DNA of 64,000 nt from Euryarchaeota archaeon SM23-78. GTDB taxonomy: Archaea > Nanobdellota > Nanobdellia > Woesearchaeales > SM23-78. This document shows positions 20,189 through 62,834 of the stretch, piece by piece. The stretch is taken from assembly GCA_001595785.1 (NCBI GenBank), contig LSSJ01000005.1, positions 1-64,000 of the forward strand. The letters are read 5' to 3'. The translations under genes were made by a program, and so were the position numbers. How positions within the stretch are numbered: the first letter of the stretch is position 1; every line of letters begins with the position of its first letter. Under the pieces are notes generated by a model. That model was given only the letters and a program-made list of their open reading frames with translations. It was not told where the DNA came from and did no database searches.

Positions 20189-20265
20189 AAAAAGCAAAAA
20201 TCAATAAAAAGGTAACATTAAGATATTATAATAATCACATTAAAGAGGTGAATGAGGTAATATTC

Positions 20266-20739
20266 ATGAAGCGAGGACAAGCAGCACTGGAGTTTTTAAC
20301 AACCTATGGCTGGGCATTCCTGGTAATCCTAATAATGATAGGCGCCCTAGCATACTTCGGAGTGCTGAATCCGCCTAGTCTATTGCCCTCTAGATGCGTT
20401 TTTAGTCCTGAGCTTGCTTGTTTAGAGCAAGAAATCATTGGTGATTCTGGAGGTGATGGTATCCTTAGATTCAGGGTTAGGAACAATGTTGGCTCAATGG
20501 CTAGTTTTGAATTCAATGCTACAGAGATAGCAACAGATACAGAAACCACGTGTGTAGTAGGCCCTAATAATGGGGTTAACATAAGGTCAGGAAGGATAAT
20601 GAATGTTAATTGTACTTTTACGGGTAATGTATTTCCAATCGGCGACAAAATCAAGTTTGAGGTAGAGACAAACTACACCAAGGTAGGAGGTGCTTACAGC
20701 ACACCTGTTAAAGGAGAGATTTATGCAGAAGCTAAATAG
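20266..20739 (+). CDS. Archaeal type IV pilin, class III signal peptide
   Basis: A 157-residue pilin. The start MKRGQAALEFLTTYGWAFLV is the archaeal class III signal: prepilin peptidase cuts after Gly, leaving a Q-A-A-L-E-F helix that forms the fibre core. A Cys pair (about 44 and 53) opens the globular beta-rich domain. ATG 20266 is chosen over an upstream GTG because GAGGT (20254-20258) precedes it and the signal begins there. It is paralogous to the next two genes and to the one at 62349. Confidence 0.9.
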   Translation: MKRGQAALEFLTTYGWAFLVILIMIGALAYFGVLNPPSLLPSRCVFSPELACLEQEIIGDSGGDGILRFRVRNNVGSMASFEFNATEIATDTETTCVVGPNNGVNIRSGRIMNVNCTFTGNVFPIGDKIKFEVETNYTKVGGAYSTPVKGEIYAEAK

Positions 20740-20803
20740 ATTATTAATTATGTTCCTTTTTAAAGGATAAAAAATTAAAAAAAAATGATGAGGTGAAAGC
20801 AAC

Positions 20804-21280
20804 ATGAGAAGAGGACAAGCAGCACTGGAGTTCTTGACAACATACGGCTGGGCCTTTATAGTGATTCTGATAATGATAGGCGCCCTAGCATACTTTGGAG
20901 TGCTGAACCCTAGTAGGACCCTACCCAATAAGTGTTTGGTAGAAGCAGGGTTTCACTGCAAGGATTTTAAAATACAGAATGACAGCTTTTCCATTAGCCT
21001 TGTCAACAGAAAAGGAGATGGACTAAGAAGTGTAAACCTAACAGAAGTAAATTCTGACGCCGGAGGAGGTATAACGCTAGCAGATTGTACTGCAGCTACA
21101 TACACACCCCAAGATGCTAATGTTCAGGCAGACGCAACATTTACCATCTTTTGTGAAGGACTGGACTTCAGTGCTTCTGCTGGTGACAAGATAACCATAG
21201 AATTCAGCGCTGACTACGCACTGGCAAAAGGCACCTATGCACAGAAGTTTTCAGGAAGCATCTTTGGAGCTGTACAGTAA
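20804..21280 (+). CDS. Archaeal type IV pilin, class III signal peptide
   Basis: A 158-residue pilin with leader MRRGQAALEFLTTYGWAFIV, nearly identical to its upstream paralogue through GALAYFGVLNP. The globular part has diverged, with cysteines at about 44 and 52 plus two more near 93 and 118. Start: GAGGTGAAAGCAAC precedes the ATG. Conservation of the helix and divergence of the head suggest subunits of one filament with different surfaces. Confidence 0.9.
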   Translation: MRRGQAALEFLTTYGWAFIVILIMIGALAYFGVLNPSRTLPNKCLVEAGFHCKDFKIQNDSFSISLVNRKGDGLRSVNLTEVNSDAGGGITLADCTAATYTPQDANVQADATFTIFCEGLDFSASAGDKITIEFSADYALAKGTYAQKFSGSIFGAVQ

Positions 21281-21366
21281 GAACATAAACTTTTTTAATT
21301 AAAATTTTTATTTTTATCTTTATAATAATTTTAATTCTAAGTGAAAACAGGGATGGGTTAAAAAAG

Positions 21367-21828
21367 ATGGTGAAGCAAAGAAAGGCTCAGGCTGCTTTTG
21401 AGTATCTCACAACTTATGGCTGGGCTGTTCTAACAGCGCTGGTAGCTATAGGCGCCCTAGCATACTTTGGTTTTCTTAATCCTAACAACCTGCTGCCTAA
21501 TCGGTGTGACTTTGGAAAGCAACTGGAGTGTGTGGAGTACAGAATCCGGGATGAAGGAGCCCTTGGCTATGTTGATTTACAAATAAGAAATAATTTTGGC
21601 AAGGATATTAATATTACAGAGGTTGCTGGGGAAGAAATAGTAGGCGGAAATGTTCCTCCGCCTTTAACCATTCATGCTGGGGACACAGAAGAGTTAATAC
21701 TAAATCTTAATATACCATTCCCTGCTGGTGAAAAAAAAGAGGTTAGTGCAATAATTGTGTTTATGAGAAACCAAGCAGGTGCTACTGAGCATAACATATC
21801 TGGCACTGTGTTTGTTACAGTGCAATGA
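21367..21828 (+). CDS. Archaeal type IV pilin, class III signal peptide
   Basis: A 153-residue pilin, MVKQRKAQAAFEYLTTYGWA, with the GALAYFGFLNP continuation shared by the other pilins here. The cleavage site residue is Ala instead of Gly (RKA-QAAFEY), which prepilin peptidases often accept. The head domain has a Cys pair (about 47 and 55) and is otherwise divergent. It ends the pilin group; the next gene, the proteasome beta subunit, has its own promoter. Confidence 0.87.
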   Translation: MVKQRKAQAAFEYLTTYGWAVLTALVAIGALAYFGFLNPNNLLPNRCDFGKQLECVEYRIRDEGALGYVDLQIRNNFGKDINITEVAGEEIVGGNVPPPLTIHAGDTEELILNLNIPFPAGEKKEVSAIIVFMRNQAGATEHNISGTVFVTVQ

Positions 21829-34777: not shown

Positions 34778-35503
34778 TTATTCAATTTTTTCTAATTCAT
34801 ATTCATAAACAGGTTTTCCCATTGCTCTGGTTTGAATAGCTTCTCTTATTGATTGAATTCCGCCTCCAACTCTAAGTAAGACATCTATGGTCTCTAAAAA
34901 AGTCTGACTCTCATCACCCCAGTTCTCTCCAATAATTACTGGTTTTTCATCTACAGGGAACCAATTATCTTGGAACTCATAAACTTTTTCACAAGCAACT
35001 CCTGCTGTTCTCCAGCCTCTTCTCTTGGCTTGTTCATAAGCAATTTTTAGAACACCCACATTGGTAAGGCCAGAAACAACTGTATTTTCAGTGTCAGGAA
35101 AGTCAGCAACTACTCGGTTATATCCTTGGTTGACTAGTGCTTCTGCTTTTTTCACATCAAACTTGGCAGGAGGACAGTAGCCTACTACTCCAAGTCGTAG
35201 TTTCATTGCATCTTTGTATTCTCCTTGTTCAAAATAATTTATAATTGCTTCGTGTAGGTATGTTTTTTCTTTTATCTTTTTTACTATCTCAAGTCCTGAC
35301 TCAGGATTCTTTAGATGTTCTTCTAATGTATCTGCTTTAAAGGATTTTAGTAAATCTTGAGCATCTTGTTTTTGAAGCAATGGAACAAAAGCAAACGCAC
35401 TTATAGGTTCTATTTTGTTTTGTGGCACATAGTCTTCTATGTAATGCTCTAGTTCAAGTGCTAATCTTTCATATCCTAAAGCGATTCTTGGTCGTGAACT
35501 CAT
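34778..35503 (-). CDS. SLOG/LOG-like Rossmann-fold protein
   Basis: A 241-residue protein whose C-terminal half fits the SLOG/LOG nucleotide-binding superfamily: LGVVGYCPP, then a strand VVADFP, NTVVSGLTNVGVLKIAYEQAK, and IDVLLRVGGGIQSIREA followed by GKPVYEYE. The N-terminal 90 residues are helical. LOG proteins cleave or bind nucleotides, and SLOG domains also occur in NAD-consuming defence proteins. It is the last gene of an operon of Tyr-rich secreted proteins, 14 nt after the previous stop, with AAAGGAAT as ribosome binding site. Confidence 0.6.
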   Translation of the reverse strand: MSSRPRIALGYERLALELEHYIEDYVPQNKIEPISAFAFVPLLQKQDAQDLLKSFKADTLEEHLKNPESGLEIVKKIKEKTYLHEAIINYFEQGEYKDAMKLRLGVVGYCPPAKFDVKKAEALVNQGYNRVVADFPDTENTVVSGLTNVGVLKIAYEQAKRRGWRTAGVACEKVYEFQDNWFPVDEKPVIIGENWGDESQTFLETIDVLLRVGGGIQSIREAIQTRAMGKPVYEYELEKIE

Positions 35504-35517
35504 TTTTTATTCCTTTT

Positions 35518-36159
35518 TCATCCATAACAGCTAGAACAATACCTATACTGGCATGCACTTATTGATTGGCAGCTTGGTCTTTGATAAGGTGTGGTTCTGT
35601 ATGCTAGGTATGGTGTGAAGTAACCGTAATAATCATAATCATATTCCATCTCCCATTCATGCTCATGGTTATAGTGCTTTACATAGTATCCATAGTCAGG
35701 TATCCAGCCATGCACATGCTCTCCAAAGGTTTTCATGCCTTCAGGTATGTGACTTAAGTCCCAGTTTGGTTCTCTTGCATTAGGATTTCTTAAGATATGT
35801 ATCTCTCCTGTGTTTGGATAATAGATATCTAGGTCTTTATACCCTATAAACTCGTCAAAATGATTAAAGTCATCGTGCAGAAATTCAATATCTCCTAAGT
35901 CTTGGTGAGCCAGATAATACCTTGGAAAGGGTCCTGTTACTAATGGAAGATTGCTATCATCTTCATAGTAGTGATAAACAGGGTATGTGTCAACTCGATG
36001 ATATATGTATGGATCAGGGGTTGAATAAGAGGCGTATGTATTTGTGTAAGGATATAAATAAGGATTGATATATTTATAAGTATAAGCATTGGCAGTTGAA
36101 AAACTAATTAAGAAGATTATAAGTAATGCACCTGTTAAAAAAAATATTTTTTTGTTCAT
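35518..36159 (-). CDS. Secreted Tyr-rich protein
   Basis: A 213-residue exported protein. The signal peptide (hydrophobic 5-20, ending TANA at about 25) is followed by a region extremely rich in Tyr, Pro, His and Asp (YLYPYTNTYASYSTPDPYIY and similar). The end has a cysteine-rich tail (CQSISACQYRYCSSC). Composition suggests an extracellular structural or cross-linked matrix protein. Its ATG overlaps the TGA of the upstream gene. I know of no family; the Gly/Tyr-rich protein at 37331 is a compositional relative. Confidence 0.72.
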   Translation of the reverse strand: MNKKIFFLTGALLIIFLISFSTANAYTYKYINPYLYPYTNTYASYSTPDPYIYHRVDTYPVYHYYEDDSNLPLVTGPFPRYYLAHQDLGDIEFLHDDFNHFDEFIGYKDLDIYYPNTGEIHILRNPNAREPNWDLSHIPEGMKTFGEHVHGWIPDYGYYVKHYNHEHEWEMEYDYDYYGYFTPYLAYRTTPYQRPSCQSISACQYRYCSSCYG

Positions 36160-36722
36160 TTTATTTTTACTGTCCCGTACTTCTCAGCTAGTCTGTAAAG
36201 TTCTTTTTCTGAGAGTTTTGTTTCAGGAGGACGGTGTCCTGGCATTTTATATGTTAAGTCACTAGAGTCATCACTTTCACCAATAATTTGTTTCATGAAT
36301 AAACGCCCCAGAACAATGCCTTTTTCTTTTTCAGACCAAATATTAGCGTCTATTTTTATGAAACCCCTACCTCCTTTACTTATCATTCCCGGATAATCTA
36401 TATACCAATCTTCTGAAAGAAGATATTCACTGCCAAAGAGGTAGTCAGGACCCAGTTTATTAGATCTTTCTATATCCCATATCAAGTTCACACCAACTGT
36501 TTTTGCTTGTGCATCTAGTTCTCTTAACACACCTACATAATTATAAAACGATTCTTCTGACATTGATTCTGTATCAACATAAACAACAATTGGTAGTTCA
36601 GGTTTCACCTTTTGCTCTAAACTTGCATCTGGTGTTTTTTTACAGTAATTTAATGGAAATGATAGAATACTACTTATTCCAAAAATTGTTAATCCTTTTT
36701 TTAATCCATTTTTAATTTTCAT
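36156..36722 (-). CDS. Exported metzincin-like protein without zinc histidines
   Basis: A 188-residue protein from ATG 36722, with a basic, hydrophobic leader ending NYCKK (possible lipoprotein Cys 25). The region from about 135 to the end, GRLFMKQIIGESDDSSDLTYKM then LSEKELYRLAEKYG, lines up with matrixin metalloproteases: HExGHxLGLxHSxDxxDLMYP then LSxxDixxLxxLYG. All three zinc histidines are absent (Arg/Met/Glu positions). It would be an inactive protease fold, perhaps a binding protein. It overlaps both neighbouring genes and is translationally coupled to them. Confidence 0.55.
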   Translation of the reverse strand: MKIKNGLKKGLTIFGISSILSFPLNYCKKTPDASLEQKVKPELPIVVYVDTESMSEESFYNYVGVLRELDAQAKTVGVNLIWDIERSNKLGPDYLFGSEYLLSEDWYIDYPGMISKGGRGFIKIDANIWSEKEKGIVLGRLFMKQIIGESDDSSDLTYKMPGHRPPETKLSEKELYRLAEKYGTVKIK

Positions 36723-37317
36723 TTTTATTTTCTTTTCTAGCATAAGGCCAGCATTCACCCATTTCAGGATGTTTTTTTTCAAACTCTCTTGCACAAATAT
36801 AGCATGGCTTTTCCCAAAAACCAAATTTATCTAGTTTTCCTGAGCCAAATGAAGGCTGCTCATCAATGTCAGTTGTTGAAACACTGCAATTTACATTTCC
36901 GCAAGCTTGCTTTACAACAGCACAAAGATCTGATCTGGTATCATTCTCATGAAAAACCCAGTTTCTCCAATTATCAGATTCTGTATCTATTTCAGGAAAA
37001 TCTGTTGTTATTAGATAAGCCATAGTCTTAAGATGCTTTTGCATTTTTTTTCTTTGAGTATTTTCATCATCTCCTGTTTGAAAAATGGATAGAGATTCAA
37101 TAGCTTTCTCCACATCAGCTTTAGGAAGACCTCGCTCCTTTGCTACATCAGAAAGAAAGATAGAATATTCAAAATAATTTTTTCTTATTTTCATTATAGT
37201 ATCTCTATCTTCCACAGCTGAAGAGGGTATATTTTGTTCTCTTATATAATCTTCTTCTTTTTTAATGTAAGCTTGCTTTATTCCTTCAAGTTGTTGAACA
37301 AGGTCAACATTTATCAT
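36712..37317 (-). CDS. Cytoplasmic Cys-containing protein of the Tyr-rich operon
   Basis: A 201-residue protein that I do not recognise. No signal peptide. Helical residues 1-115 contain a segment resembling a small helix-turn-helix (VAKERGLPKADVEKAIESL). The C-terminal part holds cysteines CAVVKQACGNVNC and CYICAREFEKKHPEMGEC, possibly a metal site. ATG 37317 is set by AGGTGA. The gene lies 14 nt after the Gly/Tyr-rich protein gene and overlaps the metzincin-like gene by 11 nt. It could be the operon's regulator or a chaperone; that is a guess. Confidence 0.62.
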   Translation of the reverse strand: MINVDLVQQLEGIKQAYIKKEEDYIREQNIPSSAVEDRDTIMKIRKNYFEYSIFLSDVAKERGLPKADVEKAIESLSIFQTGDDENTQRKKMQKHLKTMAYLITTDFPEIDTESDNWRNWVFHENDTRSDLCAVVKQACGNVNCSVSTTDIDEQPSFGSGKLDKFGFWEKPCYICAREFEKKHPEMGECWPYARKENKNEN

Positions 37318-37330
37318 TTTTTCACCTGTA

Positions 37331-38143
37331 TTAGTAATAACCCACAATATAAAACCCATTGCTGAGTGGGTCTGATATTCTTGCATATGCTCTTGGTTGG
37401 TCTGAATAGATATCGTTTAAGTCATAATCATAGTAACCATAGCCACCATAACCACCATAGCCTCCATAGTATCCGTATCCGCCATAACTATTGTAGCCCC
37501 CATAGTTACCATATCCTACGTAGTTACTGTAGCCGCCATAGTTGCCATAACTCCCATAGCTATCATAACCCCCATAGTAATCATAGCCATCATAACCACC
37601 ATAGCTCCCGTAGCTGTCATAGTTGCCATAGCTACCATAATAACCTCCATAACCCCCATAGTATGAGTTGTACGGGTCTGGGTAGCTTAGGGTTAGTTGT
37701 CTTGGTGCTCCATTGATATGTGGATGATCAAAGTATACACCATTTAAACTGCTTGGGATATAGCCTGTGTACTTTCCATTCACAATGTCTCCGTGGTATT
37801 TGACTGCTGATGGTTGGTCTAGGCTTGAACCATAGCCCCGTGTTGGTGTCTGGTAGAACTCTCCTTGTAATGGAGGATTATACTTTGCTCTTAGAACATC
37901 AGGTGGTATATAATAATAATCTGGTCCATAGAACCCAAAGTTCATTACCAGGTTTCTCTCACTCACGTATTCTGAGAATGCTTCTAAGTCATGATATTTT
38001 ATGTAATCTTCTTTGTAAGCTTCAAAGCGCTCCCATTCTTCTTCTCTTGCTTTTTCTATGTCAAAGATTACTGCACTGGCTAGGTTTGCAAATATTAAAA
38101 CAAAGATTACAAATAAAAAAATGAGTGTTGGTTTTTTGTTCAT
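37331..38143 (-). CDS. Secreted Gly/Tyr-rich repeat protein
   Basis: A 270-residue exported protein. The signal peptide (residues 5-24, ending LASA) precedes a mixed domain (25-155) and then some 85 residues composed almost only of Gly, Tyr, Ser, Asn and Asp in short YGGYGxY-type repeats (about 160-240). Such low-complexity sequence is typical of self-assembling or adhesive extracellular proteins. It is the first gene of a five-gene operon; GGGGGATT fixes the start. The coding repeats give a long run of CCATA-type motifs on the plus strand. Confidence 0.8.
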   Translation of the reverse strand: MNKKPTLIFLFVIFVLIFANLASAVIFDIEKAREEEWERFEAYKEDYIKYHDLEAFSEYVSERNLVMNFGFYGPDYYYIPPDVLRAKYNPPLQGEFYQTPTRGYGSSLDQPSAVKYHGDIVNGKYTGYIPSSLNGVYFDHPHINGAPRQLTLSYPDPYNSYYGGYGGYYGSYGNYDSYGSYGGYDGYDYYGGYDSYGSYGNYGGYSNYVGYGNYGGYNSYGGYGYYGGYGGYGGYGYYDYDLNDIYSDQPRAYARISDPLSNGFYIVGYY

Positions 38144-38271
38144 GTTTAATCCCCCTTCTTACGTATAATGTACTTTATCATTTAAATACTTTTCGCTTTT
38201 TTAACCACTAAATAGTAGTTATATTATTATTTTCAATATAGAACTTAAATATTGCAAAAAAAAATAATTAT

Positions 38272-39300
38272 TTATTTGCTGGACTTAAAAACCTTGCTCA
38301 AGTCAACCTTTGACTCAGGCATCTTCTCAATCTCTTTTTTTCTCTGCTCATCACTCTTCTTAGGCTTATCACTCTCATCCAGTTCCTTAATCTTAACATC
38401 AGGCTCTTCTTCATCACCAAATTCTTCAGAAGGCTCTTTAGGCTCAGATTCCTCTGGCTCTTCAGTTGCCTCATCCTCACCAACAGTTTGATCCTCAATA
38501 CCTTCGTCACCATAATCGGGTTTCTCCTCAGGCTCTTCCTCAGGTTCAGGTTCCTCTGATTCAAGCACAGATTCATCAATATCCTCTTCTGGTTCTTCAT
38601 CTTTTTCTTCTAAATCTTCTTCAAGTTCTGGCTCTACTTCTCTTATAGGCTCTGGCTCATGAACCCAAAAACCCTCTTTCTCCTCAGGATAAGGAGGCTC
38701 GGGAATTTCATCCTCACTCTCAGGCTCTAGAGGCTCAGGAGCTTCAGGTCCTGCATGATGTTCAGGTGCCTCAGGAATCTCTGGTTCTGGAGTTTCAGGA
38801 ACCTCAGGCTCAGGAACTTCAAGTCCTTCCTCGGTCTCCTCAGCTTCTAGCTCTGGCTTCTCAAACTCAACCTCAGCTTCTAGCTCAGCAGGCTCCTCGC
38901 TAACCTCTTCTTCACGTGTTGGTGTTACATCAACAGCTATCTCGTCATCCTCTCTCTCAATAGGTTCCTCTTGCTCTTTAACAATATCTTTCAAAGGCTT
39001 AGTAACATCAACACCCTCAACATCAATCCTAACATCAGCCTTGCCCCTAGCAATATTAGAGCTTATCTCTGCAACTCGTTTCTGAGCAAGCTCAACCTCA
39101 ACACTCTTTTTATCCTCACCAAAAATCCTTTTTTCTCTCTCAGCAAAATCCTCAGACACCTTCTTACTAGTAGAGAGCATTTCCTCAGCCATCCTCCTAG
39201 CCTCTGAATCAGAAGAAGCAAGCTTGTTCTTACGCAGATTAGCAACTAACTTCTCAATCTCCTCATCCTTTTTAGTTTTAATCTTATCCACATCAATCAT
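38272..39300 (-). CDS. Acidic Glu/Pro-rich low-complexity protein
   Basis: A 342-residue protein. The N-terminal 110 residues are helical and charged (KDEEIEKLVANLRKNKLAS, EARRMAEEML). Residues 115-310 are Glu/Pro-rich, with PEPEVPETPEPEIPEAPE-like repeats and almost no hydrophobic residues, so disordered. The short basic C-terminus ends VDLSKVFKSSK. No signal peptide or membrane segment. A cytoplasmic spacer or nucleic-acid/protein scaffold is possible; I recognise no family. AAGGTGATGG precedes the ATG. Confidence 0.7.
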   Translation of the reverse strand: MIDVDKIKTKKDEEIEKLVANLRKNKLASSDSEARRMAEEMLSTSKKVSEDFAEREKRIFGEDKKSVEVELAQKRVAEISSNIARGKADVRIDVEGVDVTKPLKDIVKEQEEPIEREDDEIAVDVTPTREEEVSEEPAELEAEVEFEKPELEAEETEEGLEVPEPEVPETPEPEIPEAPEHHAGPEAPEPLEPESEDEIPEPPYPEEKEGFWVHEPEPIREVEPELEEDLEEKDEEPEEDIDESVLESEEPEPEEEPEEKPDYGDEGIEDQTVGEDEATEEPEESEPKEPSEEFGDEEEPDVKIKELDESDKPKKSDEQRKKEIEKMPESKVDLSKVFKSSK

Positions 39301-39866: not shown

Positions 39867-39979
39867 TGGGACTGCGAGGATTCGAACCCCGGTCACATGG
39901 CCCCGAACCATGGATGATAGTTGCTGCAAGAAACCTCAAAAACTGAGGTTTTTGTTGTTCCAAACTACACTACAGTCCC
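39867..39979 (-). tRNA. tRNA-Pro(CGG) with a 39-nt intron in the D loop
   Basis: Acceptor GGGACTG pairs with CAGTCCC, discriminator A, no encoded CCA. Anticodon arm CATGG-TTCGGGG-CCATG gives CGG (Pro). T arm CGGGG-TTCGAAT-CCTCG. The gene is 113 nt; removing 39921-39959 leaves a standard 74-nt tRNA. That intron interrupts the D loop after TTTGG, not position 37/38, and contains CCTCA/TGAGG arms. The exact splice points could shift by a few bases. It lies one base after tRNA-Ala. Confidence 0.85.
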
Positions 39980-42690: not shown

Positions 42691-43947
42691 TCACTCAGCT
42701 GTCGGATCAACAACCCTTCCCATGAATAATATGTTTCCTGTTTCTCTTTCCTGGATTATGAAGATGAATGGGTGGTCTGCTCTGAAATTATTCATTGGTC
42801 CTGCAGACAATTCCATAATAACTACGGTTGCTGCTGCTGCTTCTGTGCCCTCCTCATTCACATCTACAAAGGCTTGGTGTATCACTTGGCTAATAAACAA
42901 ACCTCTAGACCCAGTCATGCCTGAAAAGTCTGCTTCAAATGGTGTGAATGCGAGGGGCATACCCATCTCACTCAAGGTTTCTGCCATAAAGTATTTGGTC
43001 TCAAAAGTAAACTTAGGCAGGTATACATCCATTTGTCTTTCCATAAGTCCATTTTTCCATTCATTTAGTTTTTCAATTGTTAGAGATTCTTCAAGTTTTA
43101 ATAAGTCTTCATCTTTAGGAAGCAGGACAAGCATGGATAAGTCCTCTCCTTTGTAGAGCATCTCAAGCACCTGCAGGTCTTCGTTCTCATAGTAATTGAA
43201 TTTAGCATCCTTGTCATCACGCACCATCATGTCCACGGTGACTGTTTTGTCAGGACTCACTCTGAAGGGAGCATCATGAGTATCTTTCTTCTCAAACTCC
43301 TTGACCCAGGTTCCTTTGAAGTAGATAGCATTTGTTAAGACCAAGCGGGTCATAGGATTAATAGCCCCTGCAGGGATTATATCCTTAATTTTGTGGTTAG
43401 TCATATCCTCAACCCATTTATTAATGATTTGCCTTGATTCCTCACTCGCCCCTATAAAATCGAGATTAGTAACCCCACTTCCATAGTACTGTTCAACATT
43501 GCTCATGTATTCAGGTAAAAAATGATAGGTCTGCTCTGCCCACAAAGCATTAGCTGTGTGAAGTTTGTACTTCTTGTCTTTCTTGTTCAGGTCATTGTAG
43601 ACTTTAGCATATGCAGGCCTTCTCACATCAGCTTCTTCAGGAAAATGAAACACTTCTTGCATTTCTTCTGCTGTCTGGCCATTTGCCCCTTCATAAGTCA
43701 TGGCTAGGGCTGTTGAGATACTGTAAGGAGAGAAAAAGATATTACCATCTTCATCCTCATTAAGCTTTGAGTAAAGCTCTAAAGCAAACTGGTTATTTGC
43801 CTTCACAACAGCACTCACTCCTTCTGATGTTGCTCCACTATCATCTGCTAGTGGCACTGAAGGTCCTGTTTGACAGGCAGTTAAAAATAAGCCTAAAAAG
43901 AGTATAGATAAGATAAAAATTGTTCCAAAGATTTTTTTTGCTTTCAT
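42691..43947 (-). CDS. Serpin-family protease inhibitor, lipoprotein
   Basis: A 418-residue serpin, full length. A signal with lipobox LTAC (Cys 25) anchors it outside the membrane. Serpin signatures are NIFFSPYSISTALAMTYEGA, TNAIYFKGTWVKEF, the hinge EEGTEAAAAT, and DHPFIFIIQERETGNILFMGR. The hinge residues are small, so it should be inhibitory. Aligned to antitrypsin, P1 falls at Ser or the preceding Leu of MELSAG. Its ATG is about 25 nt after TTTTTATAAATG, so leaderless. Likely protects the cell from external proteases. Confidence 0.94.
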   Translation of the reverse strand: MKAKKIFGTIFILSILFLGLFLTACQTGPSVPLADDSGATSEGVSAVVKANNQFALELYSKLNEDEDGNIFFSPYSISTALAMTYEGANGQTAEEMQEVFHFPEEADVRRPAYAKVYNDLNKKDKKYKLHTANALWAEQTYHFLPEYMSNVEQYYGSGVTNLDFIGASEESRQIINKWVEDMTNHKIKDIIPAGAINPMTRLVLTNAIYFKGTWVKEFEKKDTHDAPFRVSPDKTVTVDMMVRDDKDAKFNYYENEDLQVLEMLYKGEDLSMLVLLPKDEDLLKLEESLTIEKLNEWKNGLMERQMDVYLPKFTFETKYFMAETLSEMGMPLAFTPFEADFSGMTGSRGLFISQVIHQAFVDVNEEGTEAAAATVVIMELSAGPMNNFRADHPFIFIIQERETGNILFMGRVVDPTAE

Positions 43948-45760: not shown

Positions 45761-45871
45761 TAGCCCTGCCCGGATTCGAACCGAGGTCACCAGGTTTCTC
45801 TAAGCTTGTTGACCTTTCTGCAAACAGAAAATTCCAGAGCCTGATATGTTTGGCCACTACACCACAGGGCT
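45761..45871 (-). tRNA. tRNA-Gln(CTG) with canonical 38-nt intron
   Basis: Acceptor AGCCCTG/CAGGGCT, discriminator A. D stem GTGT/ACAT. Anticodon stem TCAGG/CCTGG with loop CTCTGG+A gives CTG (Gln). T arm CTCGG-TTCGAAT-CCGGG. Removing 45796-45833 from the 111-nt gene leaves 73 nt. The intron follows base 37, the normal archaeal site for splicing endonuclease at a bulge-helix-bulge. Confidence 0.9.
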
Positions 45872-62348: not shown

Positions 62349-62834
62349 TTATATTTCTACCTTTGTGGTGATTTTTCCTGTTACTGTATGTGAGACACTC
62401 TCACCAAATTTTGTGTAGACAACCTTTACTGACGCATCAAATCTCGTGCCTTCTGCATAATCTCCAGTTGCTGCAGTCTCATTACACAGCTCATATGCAC
62501 CACTTGTTGGTATAGTTGCTCCGTTTGCTAGGATTCCAATATCCCATGTCTCACTACAGGTTATATCACTTCCTCCTGTTGTGTTAACAACAAAAGTCAC
62601 GTTCTTCACATCAGTGCCTAAACCATTGTATATGCTTATTCGTAAGCTCTCTGTTGTAGCGTCAGCCTTACAATCACCAAAGTCAAACCCAGGACTTAGG
62701 GTGCACTTACTTGGTAAGAGCCTGTCTGGGCTTAGCACACCAAAGTATGCTAGGGCTCCTATAGCTGCTAGCACTACAAGGATTGCCCATCCATAAGTCA
62801 TCAAGAACTCCATTGCTGCTTGTCCTCTCTTCAT
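62349..62834 (-). CDS. Archaeal type IV pilin, class III signal peptide
   Basis: A 161-residue pilin: leader MKRGQAAMEFLMTYGWAILV and GALAYFGVLSP, closely matching the three pilins at 20-22 kb. The head domain has cysteines near 43, 55, 92 and 118. It is followed upstream on the same strand (62960 onward) by a TadC-like platform gene, so it belongs to a second pilus locus or a distant part of the first. Confidence 0.9.
   Translation of the reverse strand: MKRGQAAMEFLMTYGWAILVVLAAIGALAYFGVLSPDRLLPSKCTLSPGFDFGDCKADATTESLRISIYNGLGTDVKNVTFVVNTTGGSDITCSETWDIGILANGATIPTSGAYELCNETAATGDYAEGTRFDASVKVVYTKFGESVSHTVTGKITTKVEI

Follow-up and report, generated by a model that had tools for sequence, protein, structure and literature searches.

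A conserved gene pair for tyrosine-rich, putatively secreted proteins behind a composite promoter in one genus of Woesearchaeales

Introduction

Do five genes that lie almost end to end in a single archaeal genome also function together? This question is raised by positions 34778-38143 of the window, a stretch of 64,000 nucleotides (nt) from the 1.48 Mb genome of Euryarchaeota archaeon SM23-78, where re-analysis of the open reading frames (ORFs) placed five tightly packed genes, all on the minus strand. Woesearchaeales have not been cultured, and almost nothing is known of their surface and regulation. A preliminary description had suggested that the five genes form one system in which two secreted, tyrosine-rich proteins assemble into an extracellular matrix, an inactivated protease of the metzincin type helps their maturation and a LOG-like nucleotide-binding protein provides control. 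Comparison with related genomes leads us to a smaller unit. We consider that the core of this locus is a regulated two-gene operon of one Woesearchaeales genus, encoding two exported proteins which probably act together at the cell surface, and that the other three genes are accessory; we give this interpretation a probability of roughly 0.55.

The Tyr-rich pair and its conservation

The two proteins at the center of this study are the Gly/Tyr protein (37331-38143, minus strand) and the Tyr/Pro/His protein (35518-36159, minus strand). With 20% and 16% tyrosine they rank first and second among the 72 ORFs of the window, whose mean is 4.3%. Our comparison set consisted of 78 genomes, seven of them from one genus, including that of the window, and the remainder from other families of the order Woesearchaeales. 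Each of the six other genomes of the genus encodes a homologue of both proteins, with 43-72% identity for the Gly/Tyr protein, and neither protein was convincingly found outside the genus anywhere among the 77 relatives. When 84,980 species were scanned for the Gly/Tyr family, only the same six genomes matched; this search requires one of two short motifs and so may let remote relatives escape. A profile of the Tyr/Pro/His family run over 353 genomes of the order recovered the same seven genomes plus two further matches at E 0.004-0.007, neither of these two being convincing, and neither family was present in viral contigs.

Once the insertion in the window genome is discounted, the two genes are adjacent and in constant order in all seven genomes, with a spacing of 10-57 nt in the relatives and of 1.2 kb, holding two genes, in the window genome. 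The pair sits in a conserved block with an acidic protein, and usually also a flavin reductase-like protein, on one side and a nucleotidyltransferase and a TIM-barrel protein on the other; local insertions interrupt this block in places, and some flanks are cut off in G001 and G002, whose contigs stop near the pair. Strict co-conservation and adjacency of two Tyr-rich secreted proteins make a shared extracellular role reasonable. The acidic neighbor (38272-39300) is a Glu/Pro-rich protein found upstream of the pair wherever the contig extends that far. Within the genus it is conserved only near the N end (LR.N[KR]LA.S) and, in most members, at the C end (MPES), and its acidic middle is highly variable.

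The gene that follows the pair differs among species: a SLOG gene in the window genome and G006, an AAA-domain protein in G002, a 190-residue protein of no known kind in G003 and a small ORF in G005. Such variation might be expected if the pair were a secreted antagonistic or host-directed factor, comparable to a bacteriocin, and the changing downstream genes were its immunity or modifier genes. A constant immunity gene is missing from this picture, and in two genomes (G001 and G004) no gene lies between the pair and the conserved nucleotidyltransferase, so that we regard a role in antagonism as improbable.

Both families appear to carry export signals. Their N termini resemble Sec signal peptides, with a basic start and a hydrophobic segment that ends in an A-x-A-like site in the alignments (ASA|V in the Gly/Tyr protein, ANA|Y in the Tyr/Pro/His protein). 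To this extent the preliminary description of two secreted Tyr-rich proteins agrees with our results. In the Gly/Tyr protein the predicted signal peptide is followed by a conserved N-domain of ~115 residues (about 25-141) with the invariant motifs AKY.PPLQG and FDHP, a variable Gly/Tyr linker and a conserved C-terminal end that opens with YAR[IV]. At the DNA level the Gly/Tyr repeats have periods of 9 nt and 36 nt. The linker ranges from 33 to 111 residues across the genus, and glycine makes up only 3% of it in G001. Since its length varies and it is nearly free of glycine in one species, we view the repeats as a lineage-specific expansion and not as the defining part or functional core of the protein, which speaks against self-assembly through these repeats as its central function. 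Similarities of the Gly/Tyr family to antibody chains, at E 0.06 and above, were rejected.

The Tyr/Pro/His protein has a comparable layout, with a signal peptide, a variable Tyr-rich stretch, a conserved core containing [TA]GP[FY]PR and the family-wide motif KHYxH[ED]HxW, and a tail with three cysteines. The cysteine tail noted earlier is thus a real feature of the family: C197, C203 and C211 are invariant in all seven genomes, as are H162, H165, H167 and W169. Prion-protein chains matched the profile at E 0.013-0.15, values short of significance; such matches probably reflect the composition of the Tyr-rich segment and were rejected. Invariant histidines and cysteines could also mean that the pair serves metal binding or thiol redox chemistry outside the cell, with KHYxH[ED]HxW and the three cysteines holding copper or zinc and the Gly/Tyr protein acting as the partner. 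No metal-binding family in Pfam or the PDB yielded a significant relative, the number of cysteines is odd and the Gly/Tyr family has no conserved cysteine and a single invariant histidine in the seven genomes; we therefore think a dedicated metal or redox function rather unlikely.

Structure prediction, one of the checks proposed in the preliminary description, was run on the pair. AlphaFold2 with seven sequences per family gave mean predicted local distance difference test (pLDDT) scores of 46 and 38, so that neither fold was obtained, and a search of PDB folds with the better of the two models returned no match. Where the variable Tyr-rich stretch of one member of the pair is longer, that of the other tends to be longer as well (n=7; Spearman 0.82; r 0.75 with a one-sided permutation p of 0.05), which is suggestive only.

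A composite promoter ahead of the pair

Upstream of the Gly/Tyr gene lies an 18-bp palindrome, AACTACTATTTAGTGGTT, at 38203-38220 on the minus strand, which we regard as a putative operator. Its consensus is AACYAC-N6-GTRGTT, mostly AACYACT-N4-AGTRGTT, and in the window this site is the sole match with 0-1 mismatches. It is followed at 38181-38196, on the same strand, by a putative promoter made up of a B recognition element (BRE) and a TATA box, of the form GCGAAAAG-TA-TTTAAA, which in the window genome reads GCGAAAAGTATTTAAATG; the TATA box (38181-38186) begins 16 nt past the operator. When the upstream regions were aligned, the operator was found ahead of the pair operon in all seven genomes of the genus, in one of them with one mismatch, and each has a TATA-like TTTAWA 13-16 nt past it. 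In G002 promoter and pair are separated by an inserted response-regulator-like gene, which the promoter now precedes.

The element is not confined to this locus. With one mismatch allowed, a 22-base form of the operator had 45 matches within the genus (seven genomes) and its reversed control 2; in 32 other genomes the counts were 37 and 17, those of the operator being highest in a few genomes such as G016 (6) and G018 (7); since the site is palindromic, sites may be counted twice in these totals. Sixty matches were examined in their context, and 39 have TTTAWA within 25 nt, starting 12-16 nt past the operator in 38 of the 39. As a background, TTTAWA occurs within 31 nt of non-coding window positions 14% of the time. 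The composite promoter is also present at many other genes across Woesearchaeales, and in two genomes (G000 and G003) it precedes a protein-kinase gene.

In archaea, a palindrome ahead of BRE/TATA is associated with activation, described examples being TrmBL1, Tgr and Ptr2 (PMC4158304), and the position of our operator before BRE/TATA suggests activation here too. By analogy, the regulator that binds the palindrome is perhaps a TrmB-type activator. In G002 a variant operator site is followed by a gene of the TrmB family, which we take as a hint only. In the literature available to us, a search for promoter motifs or tyrosine-rich proteins of Woesearchaeota found nothing.

The three remaining genes

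Two of the remaining ORFs had been listed too long. Moving the start of the Cys-containing cytoplasmic protein to the ATG at 37317 leaves 201 residues (36712-37317, minus strand), and moving that of the presumed metzincin, an apparently exported or membrane-anchored protein, to the ATG at 36722 leaves 188 residues (36156-36722, minus strand). The SLOG-like gene (34778-35503, minus strand) comes last. With these starts the first two genes are 13 nt apart, the next two junctions are overlaps of 11 nt and 4 nt, and 14 nt separate the last two genes; this bears out the description of five coupled genes with overlaps or gaps of at most 14 nt. None of the five proteins exceeds the cut-off of a Pfam or NCBIfam family.

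For the two genes inside the pair, those of the Cys protein and the presumed metzincin, the six other genomes of the genus contain no homologue. Across 288 genomes of the order the presumed metzincin again has none, and the Cys protein has three weak matches (E 0.002-0.008) that we treated as chance: two are in small genes which on reading resemble AbrB-type antitoxins beside PIN-like genes, and the frame of the third contains stops. Both genes are lower in guanine-cytosine (GC) content (0.32-0.33) than their surroundings (0.35-0.44).

We found no indication that the 188-residue protein is a metzincin. The zinc motif HExxHxxGxx(H/D) is absent, searches up to E 10 gave no Pfam match and no metzincin among PDB sequences, and NCBIfam gave no relative. 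An hhalign comparison with six matrixin-like proteins of the order, taken as a profile, returned P 0.18-0.24, inside the range of the shuffles and below the best of them. Taken together, these sequence tests lend no support to a metzincin identity or to a dead metzincin as maturation partner, and the gene is present in one genome only.

The last gene probably encodes a SLOG-like protein, judged by its relatives. Its SLOG domain corresponds to residues 99-241 (34778-35209) and is fused to an N-terminal segment (35210-35503) of 98 residues for which no homologue was detected; the relatives begin near the residue matching Met99. The protein itself stays under the Pfam cut-off (E 0.08-0.11), its relative in G006 matches LDcluster4 at E 0.0025, and a weak homologue in G045 exceeds the cut-off (35.4 against 26.3 bits). 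The earlier assignment as LOG-like is likely for the type of domain, by way of the relatives and not by the protein's own score. Homologues of residues about 99-240 were found only in G006, where the gene follows the pair, in G057 and G009, and weakly in G045, the last three away from any such pair. Nucleotide-linked control of the system by this protein consequently finds no support, as the gene follows the pair in two of the seven genomes and is otherwise unlinked. The domain resembles that of G057, from a different family, as closely (64%) as that of G006, from the same genus (65%), and this equal similarity across families suggests transfer.

These distributions bear directly on the five-gene system, with its self-assembling matrix, pseudoprotease partner and SLOG-based control. 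In its favor are the close packing of the whole set in the window genome and the position of the SLOG gene after the pair in G006. Two of the five genes are restricted to the window genome, the SLOG gene is present beside the pair in two of seven genomes and unlinked elsewhere, and the searches returned no evidence for a metzincin. The comparison of seven genomes largely refutes such an integrated system, which we now hold to be very improbable. We instead read the five-gene string as a two-gene core plus passengers. The co-occurrence check suggested in the preliminary description therefore had a mixed outcome: the pair stays together in all seven genomes, whereas the other three genes are not conserved with it, so that the proposed system dissolves in the relatives and the two-gene core survives. 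Likewise, the statement that the set matches no known system applies to the pair, which has no known relatives, but not to five genes as one set, since three are absent or mostly absent beside the pair in the six other genomes.

Another possibility, compatible with a two-gene core, is that the Cys, metzincin-like and SLOG genes are a mobile or defence cassette that landed in the operon. The low GC content of the two genes confined to the window genome and the equal similarity of the SLOG domain within and across families would fit such an insertion, and SLOG domains are known from the Thoeris defence system (PMC7272460). No relative turned up in PADLOC or in viral contigs, PHROG gave insignificant matches only and no integrase was seen inside the presumed cassette; we consider this origin quite unlikely. 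A viral origin was rejected on the same searches, the PHROG matches being limited to short stretches at E 0.005-0.1.

Interpretation and significance

The two-gene core can be put into a simple working model. A transcription factor, most likely of the TrmB type, would bind the palindrome and recruit TBP and TFB, and the pair would be transcribed together. Both Tyr-rich proteins would leave the cell via Sec with removal of their signal peptides and interact at the cell surface or beyond it, forming a small envelope or matrix element of two components with a structural role. The conserved end domains would provide folding and binding, with the Tyr-rich stretches as flexible adhesive spacers of unconstrained length, and the invariant cysteines and histidines of the Tyr/Pro/His protein may stabilize that protein or serve as metal ligands. 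The SLOG, Cys and metzincin-like genes would be later insertions riding on the promoter.

Several points weigh against this interpretation. Secretion could equally well serve a toxin or a metal-binding function, the signal peptides were assessed by eye only, and both the regulator and the co-transcription of the pair are things we infer. Given the low AlphaFold2 confidence and the lack of a fold match, surface assembly is likewise something we infer. The length correlation is weak, with n=7 and uncorrected for phylogeny, and seven genomes are few. A bolder version, in which the pair founds a two-component surface structure that defines the genus, with two unknown folds and length-variable Tyr-rich spacers, and is switched on by an undescribed, order-wide composite promoter with a protein-kinase gene also under its control, strikes us as speculative and on balance unlikely.

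Their invariant residues, constant partnership and defined promoter make the two new secreted families concrete targets for further work, and the operator offers a route, by sequence analysis alone, to a regulon of a DPANN order and to the transcription factor behind it. The locus also carries a more general lesson, namely that tight gene coupling within one genome is no evidence of a functional system.

Other features of the window

Some observations elsewhere in the window are recorded here in their own right. Four short proteins at 20248-21828 and 62349-62834, three of them in tandem, share a near-identical start that resembles a class III signal (RGQAALEFLTTYGWA and variants) and are probably type IV pilin-like. 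A secreted serpin-type lipoprotein, by the look of its sequence, is encoded at 42691-43947 and conserved in G004 (69%); such a protein is, to our knowledge, unusual for a DPANN genome. Rfam indicates two further transfer RNA-like genes of 111-113 nt, possibly containing introns, at 45761-45871 and 39867-39979, which ARAGORN did not report.

Comparison with known systems

The Gly/Tyr protein resembles lineage-restricted secreted low-complexity surface proteins in having a signal peptide, Gly/Tyr repeats and no catalytic motif, and one member of its family matched the Pfam family GRP (PF07172) of Gly/Tyr-rich structural proteins at E 0.016, which is not significant. Unlike in Gly/Tyr-rich structural proteins, the repeat here is a variable linker that joins conserved, unique domains, and the protein belongs to no significant Pfam family. 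For the Matrixin/metzincin peptidases (PF00413), the likeness of the 188-residue protein amounts to an impression of length and of the order of hydrophobic segments; the protein has neither HExxHxxGxxH nor statistical similarity to them. The SLOG-like protein has weak profile matches to the SLOG superfamily (LDcluster4, PF18306; LSDAT_prok, PF18171) over a Rossmann-like domain and has the GGG..S.RE motif in common with it, but differs from its members in falling under the cut-off, in its unique N-terminal 98 residues and in having no linkage to known SLOG partners.

The closest parallel to the promoter is found in the operators of the TrmB family, such as TACT-N3-AGTA and the TGM operator TATCAC-N5-GTGATA (PMC4158304). 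Both arrangements place a palindrome upstream of BRE/TATA, and the core YACT-N4-AGTR of our operator is close to TACT-N3-AGTA, yet the palindrome described here is longer (18 bp), has a spacer of 4 and is found in DPANN.

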